From: Cenococcum geophilum 1.58
Lineage: Eukaryota > Ascomycota > Dothideomycetes > Gloniales > Gloniaceae
Direction of reading: 5' to 3'
DNA length: 64,000 bases
Assembly: GCA_001692895.1 (NCBI GenBank)
Contig: KV748217.1
Coordinates: 1,444,356 to 1,508,355, forward strand
Shown here: piece by piece, positions 14,041 through 54,540 of the stretch
How positions within the stretch are numbered: position 1 is the stretch's first letter
Layout of the letters: each line of letters starts with the position of its first letter
Made by a program: the position numbers and the translations under genes
Notes under the pieces: model-generated
Database searches by the model: none
Seen by the model: only the letters and a program-made list of their open reading frames with translations
What the model was told of the DNA's origin: nothing

Positions 14041-14480
14041 ATAAAGCATAATAGAGGCATAGGATTTACGGGACAAATCTATACCTACTAGTATATGCTA
14101 ATTAAGCTCTATATAATAAAGCTCTAAATTAAAGCTTTAGGTTAATTAATTGGCTTATTAATTATAAACTCGGGTTAAAATTTTCGTAGGGGGGTACTAA
14201 CGATCCGCATATTTAATTGGCGTAGCCGTAAGGGATATTATAAAAGCTTTGTAATAGATATAGCAGAGCATATTTGTCTTGGCCAAGCGAAATAGTCATT
14301 TTGCACGCTTTCTGTGCGCTTTCCGTCACGTTACCTACTTAAATAACATTAATTGGCTGGTTAAATAATTGCAACTTATTAGAACAGAAAGATATAAGCT
14401 AAGAAATACTATATAGCGCGAAAAGACTTACCTGTAATATAATCTTGCTCTCGCGTTTAGGTTATAGCTAAATTACTAAT

Positions 14481-14799
14481 TGTAAGAGGCCAGCCTAACT
14501 GGAACGTATAATTATCTAATTAACAGTGTCACTGGTAAGTAGAAGGTAAGTTAAAGGTAAGTTAAAGGTAGAATAAGTTTCACGTATTAAAGGATAAATG
14601 CTTCTAACTACTTCTATTTAGAGACTAATCGCTAGTTCTTCTCTAGAGGGGAACCAGCTTCCTATATATTTCTTCTAAGACGCTAGTAAAACCTTTTGCC
14701 CCTAACCTATTTAACTGTGTCTTTTAGAACATAGATGGGATATAGATAAAACCTCCTACTATTTTATCGGATATGTACCTCTTAGGGGATTCTGTTATA
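14481..14799 (-). repeat. Gypsy-4 LTR, left
   Basis: 319 bp, beginning TGTAAGAGG. Aligns with 23994-24312 over its full length, including the internal AAGGTAAGTTAAAGGTAAG repeats. Confidence 0.88.
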
Positions 14800-19315: not shown

Positions 19316-22300
19316 ATAGTAAGACTTTGTCTCCTATCTTAAATTCTTTTGGTATATGTTTTTTGTTATAGTACCTTTTTTGCATAGCCTGGGCGTTTAG
19401 CAAGTGCTTTTTAAATTCTTCTTTACGAATTCTTATTTGCTTAATTCTTTCGGACGCTATTAGTGCCTCTCTTTTAGGAATAATGTTCTTAACGTTTTAG
19501 GGGTTATTTACTTTTACCCCAAACAATGCTTTATAAGGGGTTATTTTTGTACTACTATAGATACTTATGTTATACACGTGCTATGCTAGAGCTAACTATA
19601 ATGTCTAATTATCCTGTTAATAATTAATATAGTAGCAGAGGTAGTGTTCTAATAACGTATTTAAACGCTCTATTTACCCGTCTATTTGCGGGTAGAAGGT
19701 AATACTTATTCTTTACTATATTTTTAATAAGAGATAGAATAAAGACTAAAATGCACTATTAAATACGGTACCTCTATTAGACACGATTCCCCTTAGCGTG
19801 CTAAATAAGAGCCACTGTTCTAAAAACAGGTCTGCCAGTTCTGCTGCTGTAATCGTTATTATAATAGCAAAGTATCCTAAAAACTTTATATACCTATTGA
19901 CGATTACTAGGATAGCGTTAGCAACCTCTTTAGTTCTTATTTTAGTAGGGGGTAAGCCTGTAATAAAATCTATTGTTAATTCTAATATGGGTCCCTACGG
20001 AATAGGAAGTACTAATAACTCGCCGTATAGGCGATGCCTAGATATCTATATTCTTTGGCACGTATTATACCTTAATATATAGTCCTTAACCTCTTTAAAC
20101 ATTCTATCCTAAAAGTATTTTCTTTAAACGGCCTTAAGGGTTCTATTAGCACCGTAGTGACCCCTAAGAGGGTTGTTGTGGAAGACCTTTAGAATTTTAT
20201 TTTAAATTGTTTGGTCCTTTGGGATATATATAGCACCCTTAAAGCGTAATAGACCCTTTTAGTCTTACTGCTATAGCTTCTTAGTAACTCTAGCTAAGTT
20301 AGTCTCTACTATATCTTTCTATCTCTCCCTAAAGGCGAAGGCGTCCCTTTATTAAGCTTAAAGAAGAAGATCCGAAAAGGTTTTGTGTAGATTACTTACT
20401 TCCGTTTCGCCTACCGCTATTATAAACTTAAGGCGTAGCACGAGACGTTTTAAACTATTAGTGCCAGCAGATTCTCCTACCGTTATATAGTATACTACGC
20501 TATAGATAGGCATCTCGCCTATCCCCCTTAGATCCGAAAACTTGTAGCTAATATGCCGTTAAGTTAAAGGTGCCGTAATACCTCTAGTACCTTTTATAGA
20601 ATTTTCGCTAATTCTAGGGTACGCTAACTTTATAACGTCTGCTTGGTCTATAACCTAGTCTATAACTATATCCTACGGCTTTATAATTATATCGCTTTGT
20701 AGCTGTATTGCTAGGACCTCTGCCCTACCGCGAAATTCTATAGTTCTAGGGAAAGAGTCTTTTTTCTTCCTAAGCAAATTTTGCAATGTGGGGATTATTT
20801 CCCCTATGCTGTCCTAAATTCTCCCTGTCTCGTAATCCGGACGTCTTAATAACCTATTAGCAGGATTTGTCTTCCCTAGGCGGTATATAATTTTAAAGTT
20901 ATATTATAATAGTGCCTCTACCTATCTCGCTTGTTGACCGCTTAATACCTTTATAGTTATAAAGTGTTCTAGGTTGTTATAGTCTGTAAGGACTTTAATA
21001 GGATAATTGCTTCCTATATAATAATGTCGCCAGTGCTTTATTACTATAATTATCGCGAGTAGCTCCTAGTTATGCGTTATATAACGCTACTTTATAGGGG
21101 TTATTTTTCTTAACTAAAACGCCATAGGATGCCATTTTCTATCTTTTAATTAAGATATAATTGCCCCTAGGGCAAAGCCGAATATATTTATTTTAAGGTA
21201 TATACGTAGCTCCTAGTAGAAGTGTATTAGAATAGGCGCCGACGTAAATAAATTCTTTAACTAGTCTATAGCCTACTTAGTAGCTTCCCTAAATATAAAG
21301 GGTCCTAACTTTTTGCTATTCTTAGATCCTTTTAGTAGATCGGTAATTGGGAGTATTACTTATAAGTAATAAATAATAAACGTTTGGTAGAAGTTCGCCG
21401 TGCTTAAAAAAACCTGTACTTCTCTAAATATTATGGGGTAGGGCTATTCCCTAATAGCGTCCACCCGACTTTTCTTTATTAATACTCCATTAACGCTAAT
21501 AATAAAGCCTAAAAAATTAATGCTAGTAGTATAGAATGTGCACTTTTTTAGGTTTATATAGAGCTTATATTCCTATAGTCTTTCTAGTACTATTCGCACG
21601 TGGTGCGTATATACTTCGTAGTTATTAGAGTAAACTATAATGTTATTAAGGTAGACTATATATATTGTGTCTAACAGGCCTAATAATGCCTTATTAATAT
21701 AGGCCTAAAATATTACTAGTGCGTTGGTGAGCCTAAATAGCATTATTAGGTACTTAAAGTGGCCGTACTATGTTTAGAACGCCGTTTTTTACTTATTGCC
21801 GGCTTTAATCCGGATTTAATGGTATATATCTTTTAGATCCAATTTTATAAATATTTTTGCGCCCAATAGCCTATTAATAAGCTCCCTTATTAAGGGTAAC
21901 GGGTAGTAATTTTTTATAGTAATCTTGTTTAGCGCCCGATAGTTAATATAGAGGTAAAGGGTCCCGTCCTTTTTAGGTATAAATATAATTAGTGCCCCTG
22001 CCGGGCTTATAAAGAGCTAAATCCATCCTTCCTGAAGATTGTCTACTATATATTAACGTAGTACCACTAGCTTATTTTCTAATAGGTTATATAGTGGTTT
22101 AAAAGGAGGTTATTTATCCTCTATATCTATCTTATACTTAACTAATATAGGGTTAGGTAAGGTTTGTATAGCCTCTTTACTAGAAATATTCTCTAAGTCT
22201 GTATATTCCTATAGAATCTCTAGTTCCTTAACTGCGTATAGCCAGACATCCGAAAATAAATATCCCGTGTCCCCGTTCTTGGTGTTAAGAGTAGCATATA

Positions 22301-23993
22301 TAGTATATACCCACCCTTCTTCTTATATATAGTTTAAGAAAGTCTCTTAATCTTTAACTATAATGCGCGGTTAAGACTTCCGATGTTAATATAAGGCTAA
22401 AGGCCAATTAATGTCCGGATTAACTTAGCGAAGCTATAGGTATCCCAAAATAAGGTTATACCCCTTAATTTCTACAGCATAGAAGCGCATCTCCTGCGTA
22501 TCCTATAGACTATTGCGGTCCTGGCTAGCTATAGAAAAAGCCTATTCCCTATAGTATGGAATCCGGTGGCCTCTAATACTTTAAATAGTACGCACCTACG
22601 AGCCGCTAAAGTCCAAATCTAATTCTTTTACTAGTAATTAAGAAATAAACCCTATACTTGCGCCGCTGTCTATAAGGCAGTCTTGCATTACCTATTTATT
22701 ATTAACTTAAATAGAGACAGGAATAACTATGCGGTAGTTTACTCCCTCCTTCTTTTACTAGCCTAGTGTAAGGGAGTAAAAATCTACTAGGCTGTCTCTT
22801 TTTCTAATTAGGCCGACTCTTGCTTTTTCTGCCAGCAGAAGCGGCTTATATAGCCCTTTTTGCCGTAGTTATAACAGGTGCGTATCTCCCAGTTCCCCTC
22901 CTACGGATTAGGTCTCTACCTATTATTATTTTAGGGTTAACTAGCGTTGCTCTAGGGCTGCGAGGCCTACTTATATTATTCTTCTATAGAGCGGTTAGGT
23001 TAGAATCTGCCCCTATTATTAAAGCTAGGTCTAGTCCTACGCTCTTTATTATTAGCGTCTCGTTCCTTTTACTTACCTAAATAGTCTCTTTTAGCACTCT
23101 TAATCCGAGTAGCTTTAGAGATAAGCTTTTCTTAAGAGGTAGGAATTTCGCCCTTCTCTTATATAGCCTGTTAAATCTTAGGTTATAGCTTAGTAAGTAA
23201 CTAGTGAAGTTATATAGCGTTATCCTATAGATCTAAGTAGGGTATATTATCTTCTAGTTCTTCTAAGTAGTTTATAAACTGGACTACAGTTTAACTATCC
23301 CGCTGTTTAGCGTTATAGTATCGCCGGTTATAGTCCATCCCTTAATTAGTAGGGTCTTAGACCTAATTAACTAACTAGGTCCTAAGTTCGCTAAATTTAA
23401 AGGGTATAGTAAGTTTCTTCTTATAGCGTATCCATAAACTCTTAACGGTGCTACGTAAGAAGGTAGAAGCAATTAGTATCTAATTATACTTATTAGAGTA
23501 ACGTTTTAGATCTAGCCGAAACTTAGTTTTGTATTATTGGATAAAATAATTATAGTTTCAAAGACTATTACTATAGTACTTATTAGGTTCCTTTATACGG
23601 AATTTAGGTTTTTTTTAACGTTATAGTATAGTATAGCGTTACCCCTTTAAGTCCGCTTTGTGTCTAAGGTGTTTATACTTCCCCTAATTATTCTTATAAT
23701 TGTTCTTAGTAGTTTTAATATACTTATCTTAATCGTATCTCTAACTTCTTTATTTTTTATAGGGTTTTATATAGCGACCGCTCTAATAACTCCCTAGCGG
23801 TAATTATTCCTAAGGGTCTTGTAAGGTTAGACGGACTAGCCGTAGCTTCTTTGTAGGAAGAGGGAATACGCTCCTCTGGGGAGACTTTTTAAGCCTCTTA
23901 TAGTAAGGGCGTTGCTTTATAGGGTATAGGAGTATAGTCCGTTATTATTAATTAATAGCCGTACGTTCCTAACGGATTATAAGTAATTAGAAT

Positions 23994-24312
23994 TATAAGA
24001 GGCTAGTTTAACCGGAACGTATAATTATCTAATTAACAGTGTTACTGGTAAGTAGAAGGTAAGTTAAAGGTAAGTTAAAGGTAGAATAAGTTTTACGTAT
24101 TAAAGGATAAATGCTTTTAACTACTTCTATTTAGAGACTAATTGCTAGTTCTTCTCTAGAGGGGAACTAGCTTCCTATATGTTTCTTCTAAGACGCTAGT
24201 AAAACCTTTCGCCCCTAACCTGTCTAACTGTGTCTTTTAGAATATAGATGGGATATAGATAAAACCTCCTACCGTCTTATCGGATATGTACCTCTTAGGG
24301 GATTCCGTTACA
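23994..24312 (-). repeat. Gypsy-4 LTR, right
   Basis: 319-bp partner of 14481-14799, ending CCGTTACA and followed by the target duplication CTAAT. Confidence 0.88.
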
Positions 24313-24486
24313 CTAATCTTGCAAGGCTAAAGAGATAAATTTTCACAGCCTAGGGATTAAATCGCAGATTAATATACGGATCGTTAGTACCCCCTAATGA
24401 AAATTTTAACCCAAGCTTATAAGTAATAAGCCAATTAATTAACCCAAAGCTTTAATTTAGAGCTTTATTATATAGGCTTTAATTAA

Positions 24487-25103
24487 TATATATATAGATG
24501 CGGTTTTCTAGGAGGAGACCCCCTAGGACCCCCCTATATAGAGCTTTTACTTAATTTAGAAGTAGTAGTAAGATTAAGGCGCCTTAGTTACCGCTAGGTA
24601 AAGATCTACTATAGTAACTAAGGCGCCCTACTTAAGCTAGGCTTAAAGATTATATTAGTTATAGATTTAGTATATATTTAGACTATAGAGCTTTAATATA
24701 GAGCCCTCTAATATAATAGATTATAATTCCAATTTAAAGCTTTATATACTAAATACAGTTTAGACATATAGTGACGCAATAGCTTAGTAACGACGTAATA
24801 GCTTAGCGCTAAGTAATAGGAGGAGATTTAGGATAGCTCAGCTACTATAAGAAGGTCGTAATATTAGTTTAGTATTAAACTTTAAAAATTATATCCTAGA
24901 AGCTTGACTAATAACCCCTATATAAAACGTTAACAACGTCTAATTATAGAGCTTTAAACCGGTAGATCTCCTAGGAATACTTATTATAAATAGCTCCGAG
25001 TATAAAATCTAGAATATTTAGTAGTAGTATAAGTATAGGACGGGGTATATATTTACGTTCCTAATGTTATTATATAACACAATTTATAGGTGACAAAAAC
25101 CAG
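24487..25103. repeat. Degenerate repeat with 14-bp inverted arms, copy 1
   Basis: Inverted arms GGCGCCTTAGTTAC (24578-24591) and GTAACTAAGGCGCC (24614-24627) form a perfect stem. The sequence that follows to about 25080 resembles 25710-26010 (shared ACGTCTAATT, TTATTATAAATAGCTC-like stretches), suggesting a duplication about 1.09 kb apart that RIP has since blurred. Confidence 0.45.
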
Positions 25104-25600
25104 CCGTTAATATTGCTTAACTAACACCTACCGGAGGTTCCTCCGTCTTCTCTATTCTCTCTCGCCCGTCTCCTTGTCTAATACTATCTATATTACCACG
25201 TTAACTAATAAATCCCTTAGTGGGGACTAAAGAGGAGTATTAAAGAACCACTAGCTCTTATAAGGAAGAAAAAAGAAAAAAGAAAGGTATAGAGAAGGGA
25301 GTATTTATAGATAGGAGGAGGCCTATAAGTATAGGAGATTAGGCAGCCATAATATAGCTATTAACGTTACTTAACTAACACCTACTAGAGGCTCCTCTAT
25401 CCTTCCTATCTTCTCTTTTGCCTGTCTCTTCGTCTAATACTATCTATATCGTTATATTAACTAATAAATCCCTTAATAGAGACTAGGGAGGAGTATTAAA
25501 GTACCTCTAGCTTCTATAAGGAAGAAGAAAAGAAAAGGAGAGGAAGGTATAAAGGAGGGAGTATTTATAGATGGGAGGAGGCCCTATAAGTGCGTAATTT
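25104..25600. repeat. Tandem duplication, period about 257 bp
   Basis: Two units near 25104-25345 and 25361-25595 share TTAACTAACACCTAC, ACTAATAAATCCCTTA, AGGAGTATTAAAG and GGGAGTATTTATAGAT in the same order. They differ mainly by transitions. No coding potential was seen. Confidence 0.75.
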
Positions 25601-26250
25601 AGTAAGTACTAATAGTATAAGATTCTTATATAGAATGGGCTTAATTACTTACCAAAATATAAGGTGTCTTTATTACTATAGTGGCTACTATAGTAGTAGA
25701 GACGCCTTAAATATTTAACGATTTAGACTTCGCATTACTAAAATCTAAAATTTTATTACGGGGAGCGCGATTAACGGCCCCTATTAACAGCTCTAACTAC
25801 GTCTAATTTTTAATTTATAAATTAGCAGATTTATAGATAATAGTTATTATAAGTAGCTCTAGGTGCGGTATATATAAAATCCTAATTATAGTATAAAGAA
25901 GTCGTAGCTACTAATATATAGTTCTAAGTAGTATTACGTAATAGAATTAGTTAGTATAATTACGCGGAAAAAAAATAGAAATTAATTAGGGAAAAAGGAC
26001 AAAAAAAATTAACTACCCCTTACTAATCTTATTAATATTAGAGGTATAGCTAAGCCTACTTATAGAGGGTTTTACTAAATATATATAAAATACCTTATAT
26101 AGCCACTAGGGTAACTAAGTAAGGCTATAAGGCTAGAAAGAAGGTTCTTAGTTAGGAATTATTACATTCTTAGGGGTTACGTAACTTCTTATATAAGTAA
26201 TATTTCCGCCCTTTATAAAAACTTAAAAAATTCTAAAAATTGATTAACAC
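25601..26250. repeat. Degenerate repeat, copy 2, and AT-rich spacer
   Basis: The inverted-repeat segment at 25662-25710 (AAGGTGTCT...AGACGCCTT) is a decayed version of the stem at 24578-24627. The rest to 26250 is TA-rich with no recognised gene. The 3' end of the Helitron whose helicase lies to the right may be in this stretch, but I found no convincing hairpin/CTRR terminus. Confidence 0.4.
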
Positions 26251-26252
26251 TA

Positions 26253-26677
26253 ACGTAATCTATTAGCCAGTAGCCTATATTACTAAGTGGCCTACTTTAA
26301 AAACTCACCAAAAACCCTAAAAATCGTTCTTTAATATCTTAACAATAGCTTAGTAATAATTTATAAAAATTTATAATTAGACTTTTATACTTATTTTAAG
26401 ACCTCTATTATAGTTTTAAAGTAATTGGTTTAGCTATTATTAATATATTAAGATTTATTAAGATTTAGTTCTTAAATTTAAGCTTAATTATTATATCTTA
26501 AGAACTACCTATTAAATTAGTTTAAAACTTTAATAGAGGTCTTAAAATAAGTATGAGAGTCTAATTATAAATTTTTATAATTTATTATTAAGCCGTTGTT
26601 AAGATATTAAAGAACGATTTTGGAGTTTTTTGGAGTGGGCCGCTTAGTAATGTGGGCCACTAGCTAATAGATTACGT
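26253..26677. mobile_element. Palindromic MITE with TA target duplication
   Basis: A 425-bp element beginning ACGTAATCTATTAGC and ending with its reverse complement, flanked by TA (26251-26252 and 26678-26679). The inverted arms run well over 150 bp with few mismatches, so the whole unit can fold back on itself. A TA duplication with long inverted repeats suggests mobilisation by a Tc1/mariner-type transposase. It lies just beyond the C-terminal end of the Helitron helicase. Confidence 0.8.
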
Positions 26678-26879: not shown

Positions 26880-27328
26880 ATTTCCTATTTAGGAAAAGTC
26901 GTTTATAAGTAGTTACTACTGCCTCTGTATAAAATCTTCTTATTATACCTCTTTAGTCTTACTTATAGATAACTAAAATCGTTTTATATTAAACTTATAT
27001 TTAAATATAAGCCCTAAAAGCTTCTTAACTCGTAAGATTGCTATATAGATTAGCCTAGCTATTTTATTCTTTTCCTTAATATCTAGAACCACCTAGTTAA
27101 GTATTAGGCCCTAGCTTTTATATATAGTAAGAGTAAAAGCTAGAGTAACTAGAAATTAACGCTATAAGTAAAAGCCTTTTATACCCTCCTACTTATAAAG
27201 TACGGAAAATATAGGGATAACTTTCTTACTATCCTACTAAGTAAATAGGGCAAGTCCGTTATACTCATTTACCGTAATTAGTAGTAACTAAGGCTGATCC
27301 TTTTTAATATCCGCGTGTCCCTTCTATA
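26880..27328 (-). pseudogene. Helitron-type PIF1 helicase, C-terminal part
   Basis: The minus strand encodes PIF1/Helitron helicase C-terminal motifs: LTIYKS followed by GL and VVLDIKEKNKIARL, then IAILRVKKLLGLIF (motif VI region) at about 27020-27130. Upstream at 27250-27325 is KGHADIKKDQP..LLITVNEYNGLALF. The frame continues on the other side of element A at 29135. RIP-type stops interrupt it. Nothing recognisable follows motif VI toward 26880. Confidence 0.72.
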
Positions 27329-27339
27329 CATCAGCATTT

Positions 27340-27710
27340 TGTTAGGGTGCCAAGATCCTGGAGGCCTCCTGATAGGATTTTGATTTTCCTAATCGTCTTG
27401 ATCGTCCTGATAGGCTCCTAGAGGCTCCTGGCAGGATTTTAATTTTCCTGATCGTCCTGATAGGCTCCTAACAGGAACCTACTATCCTGATGCGATCCTG
27501 ATAGGACCCTACCATCCTAATGCAATCCTGATAGGATTTTAATTTTCCTGATCGTCCTGATAGGCTCCTGACAGGACCCTACTATCCTGATGCGTTCCTG
27601 ATGCGTTCCTGATAAGACCCTATTATCCTAATGCGTTCCTGATAGGACTCTATCATCCTAATGCGTTCCTAACAGGACTATTATCCTGATGCGTTCCTGA
27701 CAGGAACGCC
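27340..27710. repeat. TCCTGATGCGTTCCTGACAG-type minisatellite
   Basis: Imperfect units of about 20-40 bp built from TCCTGATAGG, TCCTGACAGG and TCCTGATGCG, sometimes joined by GATTTTAATTTT. They run from inside the left end of element A up to the 12-bp array. Confidence 0.8.
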
Positions 27711-27713
27711 CCC

Positions 27714-28165
27714 CACGAAGCTCTGCACGAAGCTCTGCACGAAGCTCTGCACGAAGCTCTGCACGAAGCTCTGCACGAAGCTCTGCACGAAGCTTTGCAC
27801 GAAGCTCTGCACGAAGCTTTGCACGAAGCTTTGCACGAAGCTCTGCACGAAGCTTTGCACGAAGCTCTGCACGAAGCTCTGCACGAAGCTCTGCACGAAG
27901 CTTTGCACGAAGCTCTGCACGAAGCTTTGCACGAAGCTCTGCACGAAGCTTTGCACGAAGCTCTGTGCACGAAGCTTTGCACGAAGCTCTGCACGAAGCT
28001 CTACACGAAGCTCTACACGAAGCTCTGCACGAAGCTCTACACGAAGCTCTACACGAAGCTCTACACGAAGCTCTACGCATAGAGGCTCTGCACGAGGCTC
28101 TGCGCGAAGCTCTGCGTACGGAGGCTCTACACGAAGCTCTGCACAAAGGTCTACACGAAGCGACA
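27714..28165. repeat. 12-bp CACGAAGCTCTG array in element A
   Basis: About 37 head-to-tail units of GCACGAAGCTCT with variants (CTTT for CTCT, TACACG for GCACG). A 2-bp slip near 27966 shifts the phase. Because 12 is divisible by 3, all six phases stay open as HEAL, RAS and FVQS repeats; these are not genes. Confidence 0.95.
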
Positions 28166-28172
28166 CATATTA

Positions 28173-28201
28173 CTATCGGGTCCCCGCTATATGCCCGATA
28201 G
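28173..28201. other. Conserved hairpin of the A/B core
   Basis: CTATCGGG (28173-28180) pairs with CCCGATAG (28194-28201) across a 13-nt loop (TCCCCGCTATATG). Element B has the same 8-bp stem and a 13-nt loop at 32634-32662 with only two loop differences. CACGTGC follows a few bases further along in both. Confidence 0.75.
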
Positions 28202-28916
28202 CGTCTACACGTGCCTCTGCCAAGTATGTCTCCTATGTAGCTACCTTATTTTTTTTTACCCTTCCTTCCTTACATCCTCCCTACCTAGGGAGGTACCAGA
28301 ACGGGAGCTAGTAGAGGACCGTCGCCAGAACCAGACGACCGTCGTAGAACTAGACGACCGTTACCAGGACCAGACGACCGTTCGAACAACTAGCCAGCGA
28401 ACACTACGAACGATTCAATNAATCGATCGATCGAATTGAACCAGAGCTTCGATATTGGCCCGTCACCGAATCGAATTAAGGCCTCCTAGGGAGGCACCCC
28501 AGACAACCACCGTTCGAATGTACAGCTAGAGCCTTCGACCAGGCCGACCCCCCAATTAAATCTGATACTAATACATAGGCAGGCAGGCAGGCAGGCAGGC
28601 CCTAGGCCTAGTTAGGAAATCAGTACACGGCCGGGGGATTATCGAGAACACCGCCAATCGACGATTTGGAGCCTCTGCGAAGGCTTCCCCCTCGATCGAT
28701 CGCTCAACGATCGTCCCCCTAGAACGACGCAGGGCTCCTATGACAGACAGATACAGGCAGTAGGCAGGAAGGATCAATTTGGATTATGTATCCTGTATAT
28801 AGCATAGGGCTCAAAATTAAACTAATTTTCATATTTATTGGCTGGCTGTGAATACTAGAGCATTAATACACCTTATTTTTAAATTTCCTAATTATTATCC
28901 TAATTGTCCTAATTGT

Positions 28917-29010
28917 ACTGATGGTCCTGATGGTCCTGGAGATCCTGGAGGTCCTGGAGGTCCTAGAGGTCCTAGTGGTCCGTGTAATCCGTGTAGTCCG
29001 TGTGGTCCGG
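28917..29010 (+). repeat. 9-bp GGTCCTGGA-type repeat
   Basis: About ten 9-bp units reading Gly-Pro-X in one plus-strand phase (collagen-like), ending in GTCCGTGTA variants. It lies in the tail of element A and is absent from element B. It is probably a simple repeat, not a coding gene. Confidence 0.7.
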
Positions 29011-29134
29011 GTGCGCTCCTAATAGGCTCCTAATAGGATACCGAGTGTAAGTGTCTCCTAGGGCTCCTGACAGCCCTGTTAGGAGCTATTAGGAGCTGTC
29101 AGTACTGTTAGGAGGCATGAACATTTTGCTGATG

Positions 29135-30134
29135 TATAATATCTTTAACTATACTAGTAGTACCGTTTACTACGCCTAGTTTAACCTAGGTATTTTATAT
29201 TAGTATTACTTTTACGCCAATATATAGGGCTAGATTATCTATAGTATCGTACTAATTAAAAGTAACTTTCCGTATACCTATACTAGTGTTAACTAACTTA
29301 ATAGCTACTACTAGCTATAAAAGGTTACGAAGCTAAGTAGTATTATATTTACCTATAGTAGCGCGTATACTATATAGCCAAATTATATTATTAAAGCCCG
29401 TAACCTTATTAGTAGATAGGCCCTACTTATACCTAATTAAAAAAAGCTTCTAGGTTAAATTACTTATAGAATTACTACGTAGCTCTATAAGGGCGGTCCT
29501 TAATATAAAGCTTTTAAGATTATTACTACCCTACTATATAACTTAATCTAGGATAGCTGTTTGGTTAATTACCTTATAGGCTCCTTTTTTATAGCTAGCG
29601 AGCTCTAACGGCCTAGCGGGTAGATTACTATATAAGGCCGCCTAATTTATAGGGGGAAGCTAATAGAAATCGCCTACTAGTAAGATATTTAAGCCTTTAA
29701 AGTAGTTATTACTATATATAGGGTAGATCTAACAGAGGCGGCGATTAATTTAGGCTAGATATATTTACCTAATTATAGATTTCTTATTAAGGACAAGATA
29801 GTAAATATTATTAAAAGCTTATTATAGAGGCGTAAGACTAGTAGTAGGCAATTTCTTAAATAGGCGATTTACTAATAACCTTAATAGATTATATATAGCT
29901 CTACTCTTAATATTAAAGGCAGCTACCCTAGTAGGGGTCACTTAAGCTAATAGCATTGGCTTATTATTAGCCCTTACTATATTATAGAGCGTAGTAAAAA
30001 GGACAGTAATAAGATATAATTTACCGGTTTATGCCTCTCTATTAACGTTAATCCGCAGTAGGGAGAAGCTAAGACCTACTTAGATCTGCCTATAGTAATT
30101 AACTATAATATTATAAATATAATACTAGCCTAGT
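29135..30134 (-). pseudogene. Helitron-type PIF1 helicase, central part with Walker motifs
   Basis: The minus strand carries the ATP-binding motif as INVNREA.TGKLYLI (about 30040), which corresponds to the GxAGTGKS Walker A of the family. Then come LVLNKKSII in place of the DEKSM Walker B (about 29760), LLVGDFYQLPP (about 29665) and ALYIGVKVIL..VKLGVVNGTTSIVKDII (about 29140-29240). PIF1-family helicases unwind DNA 5' to 3'; in Helitrons they form the C-terminal half of the Rep-Hel protein. Key residues are altered by C-to-T/G-to-A changes and many stops are present, so it is inactive. It could instead be a free-standing PIF1-like repeat gene, because the Rep half is not visible. Confidence 0.75.
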
Positions 30135-30251
30135 TGTTACGGACCTTATATTAGCAGTAGTAGCACTACTAAGGAGAGATATAAATGGGTTAGTTAAGAT
30201 AGTATAGGAGGCGCTGGAACCAGTCGAGCTATAGGACGAGGGGTAACCGAG

Positions 30252-30419
30252 TTTTTTTTTTTTTTTTTTTGAAATCATACACCGTTTTAGCTGCCCTAAG
30301 GGCGCTATGCCGGGTCTTCTATTTTATAGAGGTAGATCCTAGGTAATCACCCGTCTTATCTACAGCAGTGATTCCGTAAGGCCCTTATCCGCCTATCTAC
30401 TACGTACTATAGGTGTACG
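30252..30419 (-). other. LINE 3' untranslated region and poly-A tail
   Basis: Nineteen T on the plus strand (30252-30270), then a short stretch without recognised coding capacity up to the end of ORF2. This marks the 3' end of the minus-strand LINE. Confidence 0.75.
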
Positions 30420-31090
30420 GTGCCTAGGAGAGAAGCAAACGCCTAAAATCACCAAGTCTGAATTGAGAATTAAACGCCAGAGTAATATAATTATAAGGAT
30501 ATATATAAGCAGGGTAAGTTCCTATATAAAGGAGATAATCGAAATTAAATAATTAAAAAGTAGTAAGTATATAAATTACCTCCGTTCCGTACCGTATATA
30601 AAAGCTAGGCCTATTTTACGGGTCTAGAGTTCTTGCTTTAATACTGTCCGTCTTCCGCTAACGTCGCGTATAACTACTAAGAGAGACTTAGTTAGTTACT
30701 TTAAGTCTATCCCTGGCCTCTAGAAACTGCCCTAGGAGGCCTATTTATATTATATATTATGCTACTTTCTTTACTAACCATACTAGGTTTAAGATTAATT
30801 TATAGCTCTAAGGTTGGCTATTATACAGCCAAACTGCTTTCCTTAGATCCTTAAAGTTGGGGTATTTAATTAGGACGTGTCGCCCTATCTATTTGTCCCC
30901 GCATATACACCTTAAGTTAGGCGCGCGTTTAATCCTATAGAGGTAGCTTTTAAGGGCTACCTTGCCTGTACGGATCTATGTAAGGGTAGCAGAGAAAGCC
31001 TTTAGTAAACCCCTATATACCCTTAGTCTCTGCTTTAAATTTTTTAGTACTAGTCTATATAATTCTCTCCCGGTCTCTCCTGTCTCCTAC
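30420..31090 (-). pseudogene. LINE ORF2, C-terminal CCHC region
   Basis: Reads ETGETGRELYRLVLKNLKQ, then RVYRGLLKAFSATL..IRTGKVALKSYLYRIKRAPN, then LRCICGDK.IGRHVLIKYPNF. This is the cysteine/histidine signature found after RNase H in Tad1-clade LINEs (CxCG...H....C). The frame follows directly from 34192 once element B and one copy of its 2-bp duplication are removed. The stop codon could not be fixed. Confidence 0.8.
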
Positions 31091-31583
31091 TTCATCAGGA
31101 AATTTTTTTTGGGGCTCGTTGTTGCGGTTTGCGGCAAATTGCCGCAAACCGTACGGTTGCGGCAGGTGGATATGGTTGATAGCAATTTGCGCAAAACGCA
31201 CGTTTTATAACAAAATCGCAGCACCTAATAGCAAATTGCGGCAAAATGCTACCCCTATAAATAAATTGCAGTAAAACGCTACCCTATAAATAAATAGCGC
31301 GCAAACTGTACGAATTGTAAAAACTATACGAATTGTATAAACCGTACGAATTGTATAAACTATACGAATTATATAAACCGTACGAATTGTAAAAACTGTA
31401 CAAATTGTAACTATATAAATTATAATTATATTATATAATAACCAAATTATCACATATTCCCATAGATTTCTATAATATACTTTTAAATATATTTATATTA
31501 TAACTATATAAAATGTAGAGCTATCTACTTTGGGCGTTAAGGGGGAAGCCTCTCGCAGAGGCTCTAAATTATCTACCTACCTA

Positions 31584-31584
<1 letters not shown>

Positions 31585-31634
<50 letters not shown>

Positions 31635-31668
31635 ACCTGCCTGCCTACCTACCTGCCTGCCTGCTTGG
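31585..31668. repeat. GCCT tetranucleotide microsatellite
   Basis: About twenty GCCT/ACCT units, extended by TGTC/CGTC variants to about 31705. It corresponds to the GGCA run at 28576-28600 in element A, at the same place in the module order. Confidence 0.9.
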
Positions 31669-31824
31669 CTAACCTACCTGTCTGTCTGTCCGTCCGTCTA
31701 TACCTACCCGTCTATGCCTACCTGTCTGTGCTACCTGTTCTATGTCACCTTGATTCGATCGGATCGATTAAATCGTTTATCGTTGTTCGCTAGCTAGTCG
31801 TTCGAACGGTTGTTGGTGTGGCCT

Positions 31825-32525
31825 CTGGCGACGGTCCGTGTGGCGATGACGACGGTCCGTCTAGCTCTGGCGACCGGTCATCTGGCTCCGGCGACGGCCG
31901 TTCTAGCTCTGACGACGGTCGTCCAGCTCTGGCGACGGTCATCTGGCTCCGGCGACGGTCGTCTGGCTCTGACGGGTCGGTCTAAGCTCTGGCGACGGTC
32001 ATTCTGGCTCCGGCGACGGGCCGTCTAGCTCTGACGACGGTCGTCCAGCTCTGGCGACGGTCATCTGGCTCCGGCGGACGGTCGTCTGGCTCTGACGGTC
32101 GTCTAGCTCTGGCGACGGTCATCTGGCTCCGGCGACGCTCTAGCTCTGACGACGGTCTCTCAGCTCTGGCGACGTGTCATCTGGCTCCGGCGACGGTCGT
32201 CTGGCTCTGACGGTCGTCTAGCTCTGGCGACGGTCATCTGGCTCCGGCGGACGGTCGTCTAGCTCTGACGACGGTCGTCTGGCTCTGACGGTCGTCTAGC
32301 TCTGGCGACGGTCATTCTGGCTCCGGCGGACGGTCGTCCAGCTCTGACGACGGTCGTCCAGCTCTGGCGACGGTCATCTGGCTCCGGCGACGGTCGTTCT
32401 AGCTCTGACGATGGTCGTCTAGCTCTGACGACGGTCGTTCTGGCTCTGACGGTCGTCTAGCTCTGGCGACGGTCGTCTGGCTCCGGCGACGGCTCGTCTA
32501 GCTCCGGCGACGGTCGTCTGCTGGC
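31825..32525. repeat. GACGGTCGTCTGGCTC-type minisatellite
   Basis: Alternating units of CTCTGGCGACGGTCATCTGG and CTCCGGCGACGGTCGTCTAG with a shorter CTCTGACGGTCGTCTAG variant. GC-rich and not RIP-altered. Element A has only two or three such units at 28318-28395. Confidence 0.9.
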
Positions 32526-32633
32526 TGTCGTTTCTGGGTGTCTTCCTAGGTTGGGAGGATGTAAGGGAAGGGTAAAAAAATGAGGTGGCTACCTAGGTTG
32601 TATATAGGGTATACTGCAGAGCACGTGTAGAGG

Positions 32634-32662
32634 CTATCGGGAATACAGCGGGGACCCGATAG
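32634..32662. other. Conserved hairpin of the A/B core (element B copy)
   Basis: CTATCGGG (32634-32641) and CCCGATAG (32655-32662) with a 13-nt loop; the counterpart of 28173-28201. Confidence 0.75.
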
Positions 32663-32689
32663 TAGTGTGTCGCGCGCACACACAAAGGT

Positions 32690-33920
32690 TTTGTGTAGAG
32701 CTTCGTGTAGAGCCTCCGTATGCAGAGCTTCGCGCAGAGCCTCGTGTAGAGCTTCGTAGAGCTTTATGCAGAGCCTTCGTGTAGAGCTTCATATAGAGCT
32801 TTGTGCAGACTTCGTGTAGAGCTTCGTGCAGAGCCTTGTGTAGAGCTTCGTGTAGAGCTTCGTGCAGAGCCTCGTGCAGAGCCTCTATATGCAGAGCTTT
32901 GTGTAGAGCCTCGTGTAGAGCCTCGTGCAAAGCTTCGTGTAGAGCTTCGTGTAGAGCTTCGTGTAGAGCTTTGTGTGTAGAGCTTCGTGCAGAGCTTCGT
33001 ACAGAGCCCCGTGTAGAAGCCTCGTGCAGAGCCTCTGTACGCAGAGCTTTGTGTAGAGCCTCGTGTAGAGCCTCGTGCAAAGCTTCGTGTAAAACTTCGT
33101 GCAGGGGCTTCGTGTAGAGCTTCGTGTAGAGCCTCTGTACGCAGAGCTTCGTGTAGAGCTTCGTGCAAAGCTTCGTGTAGAGCTTCGTGTAGAGCTTTGT
33201 GTAGAGCTCGTACAGAGCTTCGTACAGAGCTTCGTACAGAGCTCGTACAGAGCTTCGTACAGAGCTTCGTACAGAGCTCGTACAGAGCTTCGTGTAGAGC
33301 CTCGTGCAGAGCCTCTGTACGCAGAGCTTTGTGTAGAGCCTTGTGTAGAGCCTCGTGCCAAAGCTTCGTGTAAAGCTTCGTGCAGAGCTTCGTGCAGAGC
33401 TTCGTGTAGAGCTTCGTGTAGAGCCTCTGTACGCAGAGCTTCGTGTAGAGCATCGTGCAAAGCTTCGTGTAGAGCATCGTGTAGAGAGCTTCGTGTAGAG
33501 CTTCGTACAGAGCCTCGTGCGAGCCTCTGTACGCAGAGCTTCGTGTAGAGCCTCGTGTGGGAGCCTTCGTGCAAAGCTTCGTGTAGAGCTTCGTGTAGAG
33601 CTTCGTGTAGAGCTTCGTGTAGAGCTTCGTGTAGAGCTCGTGTAGAGCTTCGTGTAGAGCTTCGTGTAGAGCTTCGTGTAGAGCTTCGTGTAGAGCTTCG
33701 TGCAGAGCTTCGTGCACGAATTCGTGCAGAACTTCGTGTAGAGCCTCGTGCAGAGCCTCTGTACGCAGAGCTTTGTGTAGAGCCTCGTGTAGAGCCTCGT
33801 GCAAAGCTTCGTGTAGAGCTTCGCGCAGAGCTTTGTATAGAGCTTCGTGTAGAGCTTCGTGCAGAGCTTTGTGTAAAGCCTNGTNCAGAGCTTTGTGTAG
33901 AGCCTCGTGCAGAGCCTCTG
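32690..33920. repeat. 12-bp AGAGCTTCGTGT array with higher-order units
   Basis: About a hundred 12-bp units, the reverse complement of the array in element A. A longer landmark, CCTCTGTACGCAGAGCTT, recurs near 32881, 33031, 33131, 33309, 33423, 33523 and 33757, so larger blocks of about 100-230 bp have been duplicated. The long open phases on both strands are a product of the 12-bp period. Undetermined bases occur near 33884-33890. Confidence 0.93.
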
Positions 33921-33922
33921 CA

Positions 33923-34189
33923 TCAGGANTTTTTTTTTGGGNACGTTGTTGCAAGTNAAAATCGGGGTCTNCAAAACCTGCAGGCGTAAGTCGCAATTTT
34001 AGCATTTGCGGCAATTTGCAGCAATTTGCTACGAACACATAGATAGGGCAGGCGCGTGCATAGGTAGCCTATGTGTTTGTAGCAAATTGCTGCAAATCGC
34101 CGCAAATTGCCAAAATTGCGACTTACGCAGGTTTTGCAGACCCCGATTTTCGTTTGCAACAACGTGCCCAAAAAAAAAATTTCCTGATG
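33923..34189. repeat. 267-bp foldback at one end of element B
   Basis: 33923-34048 begins with the same CATCAGG/poly-T/CGTTGTTGCA end as the element and is an inverted copy of 34066-34189. The arms share AAATCGGGGTCT, AAAACCTGC, GTAAGTCGCAATTTT and AATTTGCTACAAACACATAG-like stretches. It is in effect a small palindromic MITE with the family's ends, forming one end of element B. Confidence 0.75.
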
Positions 34190-34191
34190 TT

Positions 34192-36627
34192 ATTTGCCTA
34201 GTAGTTTCCTAGTCTTACTTTAGTTGTTCTTTTTGCTGCGGATGATAGGCTTTAGAGTAATAGGAAGGTAGGGGCTTTTAGTCCTATCTCTCCTCCTTCT
34301 CTCTACCCCATTGCCATCTTTACTAAAATATCCGCTTATTTATTCCCCTTAATGTCCACGTGTAACGGGACCTAGTATATTACTACCCGTATGCTTAGCA
34401 TCTGTATAGCTCGTAGTCTCTTATATACCCTATAGACTAGGTACTAGCCTAAGTAGTTTTATAGTTTAGCTACTGCTTATATTACTACTTAATTATCTAT
34501 AAATATTATTAATCTTCTAATTATTAGCGAGTACTTAAGTGCTAGGTTAAGAGCTAGCTATAGCCCTCTTAGCTCTCCCGCGTATACTATACTGACTTAG
34601 TTTATTCCTATATAGTTGGCTGCTTTAGCTTCTAGTTCGGGAATACACACTAAAGCTCCTACCTCTTTGTTAATTTTACTGCCGTCTATATATACCAGCA
34701 CGTGTTCTAGATTATTCTTAGCTTCTCGTATAATTTAGTTATATTTAAGCTTGCCTGCTTCTATCCCTTTAGTAATATAGATCTTTAGTGGCTTAGTTTA
34801 CGGGCAGATAATTTCCGGACGAATTACTTCTATAGAAGGTGTCTCTTTCCTAAGGCGGAGTGATACCGTGTACTCTAATTTCTAAAGAAGGCTGTACCAT
34901 TTAAACTTTAATAGGGCGGATCTCCGTAGTTATTAAATCTTATAGTATAATGGTGATCCTTTAATTTGGTTTAGAGAGGACTTAACCGCCTAGTAGAGCG
35001 ATATTTTAATTAGTGGAATATACATCTCTACTTCCAGTTTAGCCTTAGCAGTAGTTCTAAAAGCTCCTATTATAAGGCAAAGTGCTCTATACTAAATTCG
35101 TAGTAGAACTTAGTAGATATTCTTTATTTTATTTATAAAACTACGCCCTCTATCTAGTATATACCAGCAGGAGGCTGTATAAAGTATGCGTGGCATAACT
35201 ATAGCTATATAGAGTTGGCGTATATGTCCAGTTATAATACCCTATATAGATCCTGTAATACCTAAAAGGCATATAAGTTGGCTTATAGATCTTTCCGCCA
35301 TATAGTCTAGGTGCGCTTTCCCTATTAGCTTATTGTCTAATATAACGCCAAGGTATCTAGCTTTCGTTATTGGTTATACTGTTTAAGTTCTTCCGTCCTT
35401 TAGTGTAAGCGCTAGTGGATGCTTACATTCCTCTTCTAAGGCCTTCTTCCTAGGCCGTATAAAGTAGATAAGTTCGTACTTTTATAGTGCGAATACTAAG
35501 GCGTATCTATATGCCCACTTCTCTACTCTCTTGTACAGCATTAACAGCGTCTTTATTATCTCTTCTGTGTTTCTCCCGTTTACTATTATACTTATATTAT
35601 TAATGTACCCTATAACTAGGCCATGCCTTAGTCCGTCTTCGTCTATAGCAATATCTAAAAGATCGGCGTTATAGAAAAGGTATAATATTGGCGATATTGG
35701 TAAGCCTTAGGGAATTCCTATTAGTATAGGGAATCTTTTTAATGTTCCTTCTGGTAGTTTGATATATATAGACCTTCCTATAAGGAAGCTTTAGATCTAT
35801 TTAACTATTAGTATAGGGATTCTTTATTTCCGTAGGCAGTAAATAAGCCTCTGATGTAATATATTATTAAATACTCTACTTACATTAAGTATAAGCAGGC
35901 TTACTACGTCTTCGTCACCTGTTTACTATGCAGCGTATATCTTCTCTAGAAGGAGATATACTGCGTGTTTATAACCTACTGCTACTCTTCCACCTATATA
36001 GGTGTGTAGTAGGAGGCTATATACGTCCGCCATAAAGAGTATCCGTTTTGTAAGCACTTTGTCCATAACCTTACCTACTATATTTAGTAAGACTATTAGC
36101 CTATATATCTTAGGGTCCTTAAAGTCTCCTTTCTTTAGTTTTTTTAGTGCTATAGTAATTAATCTTTAAAAGTGTGTAGGGCAGTATCCTACTATAAGGC
36201 ATTAATTAAATAGTTGGGTTAATAGTTCTTTTAGTTCCTTTATAGCCTTATAAAGTACGCGGCTTAGGAGCTAATCCTCCCCTAGTACTTTATTAGGGCT
36301 AGTTATCTTAATAGCTTCTTTTACCTCCTAAGTTTTAATATCCGGGACCTATAGGGGGTTTAGATATTAGTAGTTGTATAGGTCTTTTAGATCTATAGGC
36401 GGTAGTATTAGAAAGAAGGAGGCCTTAAGGGCTGTTATCTTTCCTTCTATAGTACGTTGTGGGGTACCTATTGCGTTTTTAATATCCGGCGTAAATATAG
36501 TTCTTATAGTATTCCGTTTTTAGGCCTATACATATAGGGACCAGAGTCCCTTTATATCTTTAACCTCGCTTACTTTATTTCTATACTCTATTTTAGTTGC
36601 TTTCCTAATAGCTTTATCCTTCTCTTA
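34192..36627 (-). pseudogene. LINE ORF2, reverse transcriptase and RNase H
   Basis: Continues ORF2 after gypsy-2. Reverse transcriptase motifs include VSLLILNVSRVFNNI, FPILIGIP.GLPISPILYLF (about 35700) and LVIGYINNISIIVNG (about 35600), where the catalytic FADD/YIDD-type pair reads INN, a G-to-A change. RNase H follows as VYIDGSKINKEVGALV (about 34690), VYAGELRGL, IIFIDN and VPLHVDIKGNK.ADILVK (about 34370). The reading ends at the edge of element B and resumes at 31090. It is inactive through stops and catalytic changes. Confidence 0.85.
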
Positions 36628-37051
36628 TGTAACGGAACCTTATAGCAGGAACTACAATAGGCTCGTTATTAGGCTAGGTGTATAGGTGATGTAAATTAAA
36701 GTTAACAACGTAATAATAACTGGTGGAGTGGTTGCCTAATAGATTAACTCTAATTATATTCTAAGAATTACTATAAGGAAGAAACTATCTAGGTAGGGAT
36801 TAAGGGTCCTTAAATACACAACCGTACTTCTATAAAATCCTTCTTATATATAATATACGTATACTCTATCTACTCTATTACGGATTATATAGATCCTATA
36901 GATTATATAGATCACGTTACGTAACCTTAGTTACCATTCCTCGTTATATAGCTCTATCGGCTCCATTCTAGACCGTGCTTATATTAACCAACTAGCTTCT
37001 TCTAACTCTTCTCTAAGTAGTCGTAATATTGTTCTTAAAGCGTCCGTAACA
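36628..37051 (-). repeat. Gypsy-2 LTR, left
   Basis: 424 bp, TGTAACGGA to TCCGTAACA; partner of 50089-50512 and homologue of the gypsy-1 LTRs. Confidence 0.9.
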
Positions 37052-40000
37052 CTATCCCCCTCCTCTTTATTTTTATCCTTAAAGATTTAAAACATCTCTA
37101 AGTTATTTACTAGAGGTATAATATCCGTCTAATTAATTTGGTTAATATTGTTACTTATTATACCTAAAGCAATTTCTTCTTCCTTAACTGCTCATCGTGC
37201 TCGTACTATTACTGCAATACTATCTCTTAGTAAGATTATACTATCTTTATATTCTCGCTGTTTAAAAGAGGGGTTAGTTTATATTACGTTGGCGAACCTA
37301 TCTTTATAACAACTGTCCTCTTACTTAGAGTATACTAAAGCGAATATTCGTTTATCCTATGACGTTCGCTTTATCTCTAATACTAAATATACGCGACCTA
37401 TTACTCTTAATAGTTGTCTAGTTCCCTAATTAATTTATTTTAGGGTCTTATATTTAATCTACTGCTGCGCGGCTAGATAATAAGCTGTTTGTTACCCTAG
37501 CGGAATTATGTTATTCTTAGGACGCGGAGCAGGAGGCTACCAATACTCAACAGCGAGCCCTTAAGTCTCGTCTTGCGGCGTCCGCTCAATTAATCCGTCT
37601 TAAGAAAGTTCGTAAAAAGGTTCGTTTTAAGGAGTAGAAACTAGTAAAATAAGGTTTATAGGAACTTAGCAATAAAAGAACGGATTCTTCTCTAATAGAG
37701 AAAGAAATAGATCTAAGTAGCTCGGTAACTACTCTTCTTAGGTCCCCCTTAGGTAACTTATTCTTTAGTAATCCTTCTTTATTAATACTACCTAACCTAA
37801 TTTTTTTTAATACTCCTATACCTTTCTTATAGCATTCTTTAAATTCTTTAGTGGTTCCTAGGTAGTCTTAGTATAGCCTATCCACTTAACCTTGTACTAT
37901 ATTTTGTCGTTAATATCCTTATAACTAATAATCTTTAAAACTTGCTATTTATCCTCTTCCTATCCTTTATGTATGTCTGCCTTATAGACCGATAGCTTAA
38001 TATTCCTATATACTAGCTCTAGTATTATAATATGTTGTATAGGGTAGATCTTTATCTTAGCTAGTAGGTTTAACTTAAACGTAACCAGTAAAATTCTCTA
38101 CGTAATTTTAAAAGGTCCTAGTCTGACATAGTCTAACTTTTTACTTAGTTATCTACTTTTAAAGTTTTTATATAGTAGCTATACTTTATCTCCCTCCTTA
38201 AGATCTGGTCCCTTAGATCTCTTAGCATTATAGTACTTTTTTATTCTTTTTTATACTCCCCTTACTAATTCCATAAGGTTTACATAAAGATTTATTAACG
38301 TCTTTATTCTTTCTTTAGCTGTGCTACTTATTTTCTTCGCTTATTGTAGTAACAATAATATTCTTAGCTTATATCTATAATTTGCCTTAAATAGTAATAT
38401 ACCCATCCCTTCTTAAGGTGTTGTATTATATGCAAACTATATAACTAGTAATAGCAATACCTAATTGTTCTGTATATAATTAATATAATGCCTTAGATAC
38501 TGTTCTAGTGTCTAATTTAATCTTTCCGTTTAACTATCTGTCTATAGATAATATACAGTAAAAGTCGCTGCTCGAATCCCTTACTCGGCTAAAAATACTT
38601 CCTAAAATGCTGCTATAAATCTTGGATCTTTATCTGATATAATCTTACTTAGTGCTCTATACCTTATAAACATTTCTTTAACATAGATTCTTATAATATC
38701 TTCCGCTAATATTTCTTCTGTGCATGCTATAAAGTATCCCTACTTCGTAAGCTTATCCACTATTACTAAGATCGCGTTATAATCTCGTCTGGTAATAGGA
38801 TCTTTTAATTTTGGTAACTTAATAATAAAGTCCTATAATATAACCTCCTATAGTCTTTCTGGTATTTTAATAGGTTGTAGCCCTCTATATAGCTTATACC
38901 TTATTAGTTTATTTCTTTAGCAATCTAAACACTCTTTTATTACTTTTCTTGCGATATTTTAGATTCCATTGATAATATATTCTTCCTAAAGTCTTAACAC
39001 TAAGCCTATAGCTCCATTATGTCCTTAAGTTAATCTCTTATAAAATTCTTCCATAAATTGCTCTACTATGCTTCTTAGGATATACTTTACTTTTTAATTC
39101 TTATATATATCCGTTTATAGATCTTTTAGCTATACCTCTAGAATCCTTTATACCCAAAAGCTCTATAGTGACTTGTAAATTCTTCCTAGTTCCTCTTAAG
39201 TTGCTATAATCTTTAGATAATTATACCTAATTAATCCGTCTATATCTTTTCGCAGTAAAGCCCCTAATGGCTTTTCATTATTTTATAGTTTAGCTTTCTA
39301 ACTTAGAGCGTCTACTTGCGTATTATCTATACCTTTAGTATACTAAATCTTAAAATAGTATTCTATAAGCATCTTTGCCCATCTAACCTATCTTTAGTTA
39401 AGTTCCTTTATTGTTAGGAATCCTATTAGGTTCTTATAATCCATTTTAACTATAAATAGTTTCTCTATACCTTATAAGAATGCTCTCTATTCCTTTAATA
39501 CTATAACTATACCTAATAACTCCTTATTATAGATGTTATAGTTTAACTATAGTATACTACTAGGTGCTATCCATCTTAATATTTCTATATAAAGCATACC
39601 CTTAATATATAATCTAATATATCCGTTTCTATAACCATCTCTAGTGCTAGTTAATAGATCTTAAGAACTGGTTCCTAGGTAAACAACTCTTTAACTTTTT
39701 TAAATAATTCCTATTACTCCTTTCCCTATATTTACAGTTCTTCTTTTTTCGTTAATCGCGTAAATAGTTTAATATCTTTTAACTATTATGCTATAAACCT
39801 TCTGTAGTAATTGCAAAACCCTAAAAACAATCTTAACTGCGTAATATTCTCTAGTTCTTGCCAATTTACTATAGCCTTAATCTTTTTTAGATCTATACTA
39901 AGTTGGCCTAATTTAATAATAAATCTAATAAAATTGGTCTTTCTTATAAAGAACTTATATTTTTTAATTACTACTAGCATCTATTCTTCCTATAGTCTCT

Positions 40001-43000: not shown

Positions 43001-43502
43001 ATCTTTACAATCCCTTATAAAATAACCTTATTTCCCGCAATTTATATAAGCTCCCTCTTTAAACTATTAACTTTATTATAGAGTCCGCCTAAACATCTTC
43101 TGCTACTAAGATTCCTGGTTTAGCCTCTACTCCTTAGTCCTATAATTACTAGATCCTTAACCCTTAGGTTTTTATAGTTTCTTACTCCATCTCTTATAGG
43201 CTTCTTTAGTACTACTTAGGTCTATTAGCTCTGCGCTATACTATAGTTTCTAACTTAGCTTTAGTCGTTGCGTACTCTACGCCTTATATAACTATAGAAC
43301 TCTATCCTAACCCTTTTTAGTCTGTTCCCTCTAGTAGATCTAATTATTAATCTTAATCGCTTAATCTATTAGTTCCCTTAGGGTATCCGCATCTTCCATT
43401 AGGATAATTACGTCCTAAACTTTAGCCTTAAGTCCTTGTTTATACTATGCTATAAGCGCCCTATTATTCCACTTAACTTATATCGCTAACGTCTAAAACT
43501 AT

Positions 43503-43703
43503 TGTTGGACTCACAAGGGGATATTACGTAGCTACGGTTCGTAGATAGTATAATAATTGTTCTTATATATTCTTCCAAGAAAGGGGAAGGGTAAGGAACT
43601 TAAGGTTCCTTACTACGCTAGTGCCGCGGCAACACGTGACGGCAACTTGCCTCACGTGACGGCAATTTGCCGCATATGGCGGCAATTTGCCCTATTCCCA
43701 ACA
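43503..43703 (-). repeat. Copia LTR, left
   Basis: 201 bp. Contains two CACGTGACGGCAA motifs and the imperfect repeat GGCAATTTGCC. Partner of 49289-49487. Confidence 0.9.
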
Positions 43704-51600: not shown

Positions 51601-51669
51601 TATTATAAACGGCTGGATATATCTATTTATGGTAGTGTAGGTACTTTTCTTAGACTCTATATAGAGTAC

Positions 51670-54441: not shown

Positions 54442-54540
54442 TCACCCCCCCCCCCCTTCCAAAAAAGCCTGCCCTTAGGCTTTATCCCCTTATAGAAAAG
54501 AAAGAGAAAGAAAAAAATCTAGCATCTGGCGCATAATCGC

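Follow-up and report, generated by a model that had tools for sequence, protein, structure and literature searches.

Two elements with terminal inverted repeats (TIRs), here called A and B, lie in the stretch of contig KV748217.1 analysed here (the window, 64,000 nucleotides) and share an ordered cassette of tandem repeats beneath ends that do not resemble each other. We consider them two non-autonomous PlavakaB-like elements that share the cassette by descent and have had their ends replaced, a reading to which we assign a probability of roughly 0.6, based on two copies in one 64-kb window. The preliminary description of this DNA had likewise proposed non-autonomous elements, with exchange of ends as one explanation, and given the ordered core under unrelated ends we rate that exchange as a good explanation. 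The two elements, each flanked by a target site duplication (TSD), are as follows:

27329 to 29134, plus strand: element A, non-autonomous TIR element; TSD TA (27327-27328 and 29135-29136); flanking frame restored by 2-bp removal
31093 to 34189, minus strand: element B, core as in A but in opposite orientation; TIR; TSD TT (31091-31092 and 34190-34191); flanking frame restored by 2-bp removal

Both cores run through the same blocks in the same order: a 12-bp array, a block from a hairpin to CCTAGG, a GACCGTCG minisatellite, a TCGAACGA..ATCGATCG block, a GGCA microsatellite and a GCCTCTGCG hairpin. Their positions, with the means by which each was delimited, are:

27713 to 28161, plus strand: A, 12-bp array with unit CACGAAGCTCTG (tandem-repeat detection, blastn)
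28162 to 28300, plus strand: A, hairpin, CACGTG and CT-rich block ending CCTAGG (alignment against shuffles)
28312 to 28393, plus strand: A, GACCGTCG minisatellite (repeat detection, alignment)
28379 to 28436, plus strand: A, TCGAACGA..ATCGATCG block, overlapping the end of the minisatellite (alignment against shuffles)
28576 to 28600, plus strand: A, GGCA microsatellite (blastn)
28664 to 28692, plus strand: A, GCCTCTGCG hairpin, the final shared block (alignment against shuffles, fold)
31540 to 31569, minus strand: B, GCCTCTGCG hairpin (alignment against shuffles, blastn, fold)
31576 to 31664, minus strand: B, GGCA microsatellite (repeat detection)
31753 to 31808, minus strand: B, TCGAACGA..ATCGATCG block (alignment against shuffles)
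31823 to 32520, minus strand: B, GACCGTCG minisatellite, expanded (repeat detection)
32521 to 32692, minus strand: B, CCTAGG block, CACGTG and hairpin (alignment against shuffles, blastn)
32693 to 33920, minus strand: B, 12-bp array of about 100 copies (repeat detection, ungapped comparison with A)

Alignment scores between A and B lay far above those of 200 letter shuffles for each block: 155 for the hairpin-to-CCTAGG block (shuffle maximum 23), 59 for the TCGAACGA..ATCGATCG block (maximum 23) and 48 for the GCCTCTGCG hairpin block (maximum 20). Together with the three arrays, these alignments bear out the earlier claim of seven modules in one order. Of the 232 gap-free columns in three local alignments that cover the non-array blocks, 208 are identical, and the identity of the first block by blastn, which counts gaps, is 77%. 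According to the predicted fold, the stem of the first hairpin has 9 bp in A and 8 bp in B; the 8-bp stem first described thus stands for B and not for A. The energy of this hairpin is weakly below that of shuffles (z of -1.6 and -2.0), and that of the second gave a z of -0.7 in A and -2.8 in B.

The 12-bp array comprises 36.7 copies over 449 bp in A and 99.8 copies over 1228 bp in B. The 66 nt of A's array that lie next to the core (28082-28147) found their best ungapped match in B at the equivalent place (32690-32755), with 62/66 identities against 58/66 for the runner-up, which speaks for descent of the array. This core-side block recurs several times within B's array, and the array has therefore lengthened through duplication of larger units. 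At their far edges, the two arrays show no correspondence (score 92, against a median of 99 at other places in B). Differences among the units, counted against a fixed consensus, are mostly C>T/G>A (18/25 in A and 99/143 in B), and both arrays look lightly mutated.

The outer parts of the two elements are built of other material:

27329 to 27712, plus strand: A left end, with the terminus CATCAGCA and TCCTRAY repeated subterminally (22 copies on one strand, against 0.38 expected)
28707 to 29134, plus strand: A right end, CATCAGCA terminus with TCCTRAY and CATCAG motifs (motif counts)
31093 to 31539, minus strand: B left end, CATCAGGAAATTTTTTTT terminus, GCAAATTGC motifs and an 18-bp tandem repeat (repeat detection, motif counts, blastn)
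33921 to 34189, minus strand: B right end, a complete 269-bp palindromic miniature inverted-repeat transposable element (MITE) that has CATCAGGA at either tip; flanked by TG on the inside and TT on the outside, unmatched

CATCAG is common to the ends of A and B, and both start CATCAGSA. Comparisons of the outer 270-450 bp of A with those of B gave scores of 23, 18 and 19, within the shuffle range (maxima 28, 26 and 26), and blastn of A ends against B ends found no match on either strand at E up to 1, in agreement with the initial remark that the outer parts do not match beyond CATCAG. TCCTRAY occurs in the ends of A 22 and 0 times on the two strands, read inwards, at the left and 3 and 7 times at the right (expected 0.38 and 0.17), and GCAAWTTGC occurs three times in the left end of B and four times in the right. 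Additionally, TCCTGATG, which is complementary to the first eight bases of B, stands four times in A's left end, always in the same orientation, where a first-order model of that end expects 0.03. These ends could also belong to a single family whose subterminal regions diverged past recognition while the core was kept, with no exchange at all. Rapid turnover is possible for the subterminal repeats of DNA transposons, and the common CATCAGSA start and the wealth of short repeats in both ends fit such a history; it must nevertheless accommodate 208 of 232 like columns in the core while the end scores stay within the shuffle range, and different motifs in the two end sets (TCCTRAY against GCAAWTTGC), and we regard it as unlikely.

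Another explanation treats the core as a mobile element in its own right (a Helitron-like one that ends just past the GCCTCTGCG hairpin, for instance), inserted separately into two TIR elements. Helitrons start with a 5' TC and end in a 3' CTRR after a hairpin. The core has no TC start and no CTRR end, its hairpin being followed by TTCCCCCT, and no duplication was seen around it at the inspected junctions in A or B; on these grounds a Helitron-like core was rejected. Moreover, the core would have had to enter two CATCAG elements lying 2 kb apart in separate events, which is improbable, and the other edge of the core is only the edge of the 12-bp array, unequal in A and B. It is in favor of an independent core that the shared part ends at the same base after the hairpin in both elements (CTTCCCCCT) and that non-autonomous Helentrons have central tandem repeats, in the relevant part of a review (PMC9659126), but on balance we find it distinctly unlikely.

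The reading of A and B as mobile elements with a shared cassette is further based on their termini and on the frames that they interrupt. In A, CATCAG at 27329 is paired with CTGATG ending at 29134, the tips being CATCAGCATTTTGTT (left) and AACATTTTGCTGATG (right) with TA on either side, and the inverted repeat is a short one, with 8 perfect bases and 12/16 (19 nt at 84% when the flank is included). In B, CATCAG stands at 31093 and CTGATG ends at 34189, the left tip is CATCAGGAAATTTTTTTT and the right tip its complement, with TT on either side and 18 perfect bases of inverted repeat. Three CATCA..TGATG pairs in the window are spaced 80-15000 bp apart, are flanked by the same 2 bp and agree in 6 or more end bases: A, B, and the left end of A with 35856, which has 6 matching bases only. 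In 100 first-order shuffles, a mean of 0.03 pairs per shuffle had 8 or more matching bases, 11/16 and a TSD of 2 bp. A transition-tolerant search of the window for further CATCAG pairs returned B alone; it was strict, as A was also missed, and older copies are possible.

Since TATA is common to both flanks of A, the length of its duplication is ambiguous from the letters alone; we set it at 2 bp because the flanking frame continues only with 2 bp removed (0-4 bp were tried; 5 bp, the same frame as 2, lay outside the test). When these 2 bp are removed with the insert, VNGTTSIVKDII runs on into XKGHADIKKDQPXLLLITVNEYNG at A, and RLGNYXAN runs on into KXETGETGREL..CICGDKXIGRHVLIKYPNF at B, whereas with 0, 1, 3 or 4 bp removed the downstream part is not protein-like at either flank, all judged by eye. 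The joined flanks of A are a degraded reading frame, the remnant of a PIF1-like helicase: Pfam gave Pif1_2B (E 0.0011) and PIF1 (E 0.0039) beside A, both below curated cut-offs, and phmmer of the joined flank against PDB gave PIF1/AAA ATPases (best 5.5e-07), with 7otj alone of three printed alignments extending well beyond the junction, where its support is weak. The joined flanks of B are likewise a degraded frame, the remnant of a LINE ORF2, with RVT_1 (E 3e-10) beside B; the upstream part is LINE reverse transcriptase. The downstream pieces of both flanks had no Pfam match; we take them, by eye and from their motifs, to belong to the same proteins as the upstream parts. With pairs of ends above chance, TSDs of TA and TT, and frames that rejoin on removal, what was originally said of inverted ends, 2-bp duplications and interrupted reading frames is upheld.

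The right end of B suggests how an end might be replaced. Its final 269 bp are palindromic along their whole length (fold z of -24.2, with N read as A), and the inner tip abuts the 12-bp array. As a short, non-coding sequence with long inverted repeats, 33921-34189 fits the definition of a MITE; it has no TSD of its own at the present site (TG inside, TT outside), and B overall has TT on both sides. We infer that B's right end was gained by nested insertion of a MITE, followed by mobilisation from the MITE's outer tip; insertion into the array and then movement from that tip would be its simplest history. Alternatively, the palindromic end may have been there from the start.

No credible protein domain was found in A (four of six frames) or B (six frames) with Pfam. 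Matches were confined to repetitive frames, consistent with the preliminary description, in which no transposase or protein was recognisable. NNH2 in B reached 31.3 bits (cut-off 27) in a repetitive frame only, and DUF445, CIS_TMP, Collagen, RelB_like_antitoxin, DUF7750 and NNH2 in A stayed below cut-off; all are taken as composition artefacts because the 12-bp repeat keeps frames open. Besides A and B, Pfam was run on 14030-26500, 50511-63366 and 1-5621 (six frames each), on 43500-49490 (four of the six) and on the flanks (one or two frames of the minus strand). Rfam gave 0 matches to structured RNAs at the gathering threshold in 27000-34500.

The window is mostly repeat DNA with strong CpA-type mutation. 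The ratio (CA+TG)/(AC+GT) is 1.12 in A and 0.87 in B but 0.30 to the left of A, 0.31 between the two elements and 0.48 beyond B on the right; within the elements it is lower in the non-array core of A (0.73) and in the GACGGTC array of B (0.59), and in arrays it depends on the repeat unit and serves as a guide only. A and B seem to be younger than the surrounding DNA, or to have been spared.

That no described family fits, as was first stated, no longer holds. PlavakaB elements have 5'-CATCA..TGATG-3' termini and TSDs of 2 or 3 bp according to the relevant passages of Kojima (2025, PMC12730594), the sole paper in the open-access library in which CATCA, TGATG and transposon all occur as whole words. 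The type is one of the CMCT clade (CACTA/EnSpm-Mirage-Chapaev-Transib). A and B agree with PlavakaB in their CATCAG..CTGATG termini, in their TSDs (TA and TT) and in the fungal host; they differ in having no transposase and in being built of tandem repeats, and the hosts in section 20 of that paper are Agaricomycotina. Strict-sense CACTA/EnSpm elements (CAC..GTG termini and 3-bp TSD in the same passages) were ruled out by the CATCAG ends and 2-bp TSDs.

The CATCAG elements might instead represent another superfamily with 2-bp TSDs, such as Tc1/mariner or Mirage, the match to the PlavakaB terminus being coincidental. Tc1/mariner elements duplicate a TA target. The duplication of A is indeed TA, but that of B is TT, which does not fit Tc1/mariner. 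It is in favor of another superfamily that CMCT lineages mostly share CA..TG termini and 2-5 bp duplications; against it, both a terminus of five bases, CATCA, and a duplication of 2-3 bp are stated for PlavakaB (parts of PMC12730594), and we judge a coincidence very unlikely.

Several points weigh against our reading of A and B as PlavakaB-like elements with a shared cassette and replaced ends. The assignment is drawn from about six terminal bases and the TSD length, and we write PlavakaB-like, with no claim of membership; Pfam gave no match to a Plavaka transposase in those parts of the window on which it was run, where mutation lowers sensitivity. The TSDs are TT for B and TA for A in one copy each, and Plavaka in section 20 of Kojima is from Agaricomycotina, whereas CpA-type mutation as seen in this window suggests an ascomycete. 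The subterminal TCCTRAY motifs of A are not neatly inverted (22/0 on the left, 3/7 on the right), and the end-replacement step is deduced from a single copy and its two flanks. Finally, in a gapped comparison the 93 core-side nt of A's array scored 74 at the equivalent place in B against up to 99 elsewhere (median 68); descent of the array rests on the ungapped match because the gapped one did not single out that place.

Under the mechanism that we propose, a PlavakaB-type transposase encoded elsewhere would bind to the CATCAG ends and to the subterminal repeat motifs, excise the element and reinsert it with a 2-bp duplication. A and B would have inherited the cassette from one ancestral element, its arrays lengthening or shortening by slippage or unequal exchange, and the original ends of the cassette-bearing elements would later have been replaced. 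In B, a short palindromic MITE with ends of the same type would first have landed in the 12-bp array; the transposase, pairing the far tip of the MITE with B's other end, would later have moved the element with a new end, the sequence beyond being lost. Tentatively, and with considerable doubt, the cassette could be a transferable module whose arrays, as targets of recombination and nested insertion, let the cargo swap ends, and hence transposase, repeatedly.

PlavakaB-type ends have been described before; what is new is the shared, apparently exchangeable cassette. Conclusions on how non-autonomous elements gain or change their ends usually come from gene cargo or elements with long TIRs; here, the order of seven non-coding repeat blocks is a fingerprint of the same cargo under two end sets, and the junction of MITE and array in B seems to be a frozen end swap. 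The elements also suggest that PlavakaB-type transposons occur in a genome with CpA-type repeat mutation.

The transfer of TET/JBP cargo genes and chimeric copies of Galileo are precedents for such an exchange of ends. TET/JBP genes pass between superfamilies of fungal DNA transposons as cargo without ends of its own (PMC12730594, in section 25); as in A and B, internal cargo is common to different-ended elements, but in A and B it consists of non-coding tandem repeats and both end sets look like one superfamily. In Drosophila, Galileo copies combine the ends of one subfamily with the internal region of another; in the portions of PMC3573991 that deal with Drosophila mojavensis, Galileo resembles A and B in its non-autonomous, chimeric copies and tandem repeats in the ends, and differs in its P-element superfamily, 7-bp TSDs, long TIRs and animal host. 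Internal tandem arrays are known from the Helentron CgHINE, MITEs with (GTCY)n and Atenspm/ENSAT1, which carry satellite-like arrays as A and B do, but belong to other superfamilies or hosts and have single arrays, with no ordered set under two kinds of ends, in the passages of the review PMC9659126 on them. The cassette layout of A and B was not met in the open-access literature searched, mostly at listing level. The Aspergillus MATE element, which has tandem repeats, is a further, unconfirmed comparison.

A related 12-bp unit occurs in two other repeats of the window, C (4598-5622 and 13563-14029) and D (63367-63850). C is heavily mutated and split by a long terminal repeat (LTR) element with an ATAAA duplication. 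C and D have a common tail (ACTAATATACTAGGAAGG-like; 4765-4888 against 63725-63846, 80%), which had no blastn match in A or B; therefore, the 12-bp unit is present in at least two differently built repeats. Within the window, blastn matched the cores and ends of A and B to C or D in the 12-bp arrays only (weak matches elsewhere in the window, E 0.007 to 1, were dropped). If the cassette were indeed a transferable module, the arrays in C and D would be part of the same traffic. Patterns for the 12-bp dimer, degenerate 12-bp unit, B terminus, hairpin and minisatellite found 0 stretches in a viral contig collection, and one scan of a genome contig collection gave three single 20-base matches, all bacterial, one per locus and not arrays, which are taken as chance; misses in viral, bacterial and archaeal collections mean little for a fungal element.

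The remaining repeats of the window are of several kinds. The insertion in C (5623-13562) has LTR-like direct end repeats of about 425 bp and the 5-bp duplication ATAAA, and a 6.9-kb relative lies at 36627-43500. A pair of 320-bp direct repeats (94%) at 14478-24310 surrounds matches to reverse transcriptase, RNase H, integrase H2C2 and, weakly, a chromodomain; an open frame inside it (17534-18100, minus strand) has CCHC-like knuckles by eye, no Pfam match and fewer signs of mutation. On the minus strand, 59737-61455 matched NDC10_II (E 1.8e-26) and GCR1_C (0.00038, below cut-off) in one frame with stops read through, as would presumably be expected of a Crypton-type tyrosine recombinase. At 57686-57847 (plus strand), a hAT dimerisation domain (E 1e-09) marks the remnant of a hAT transposase.

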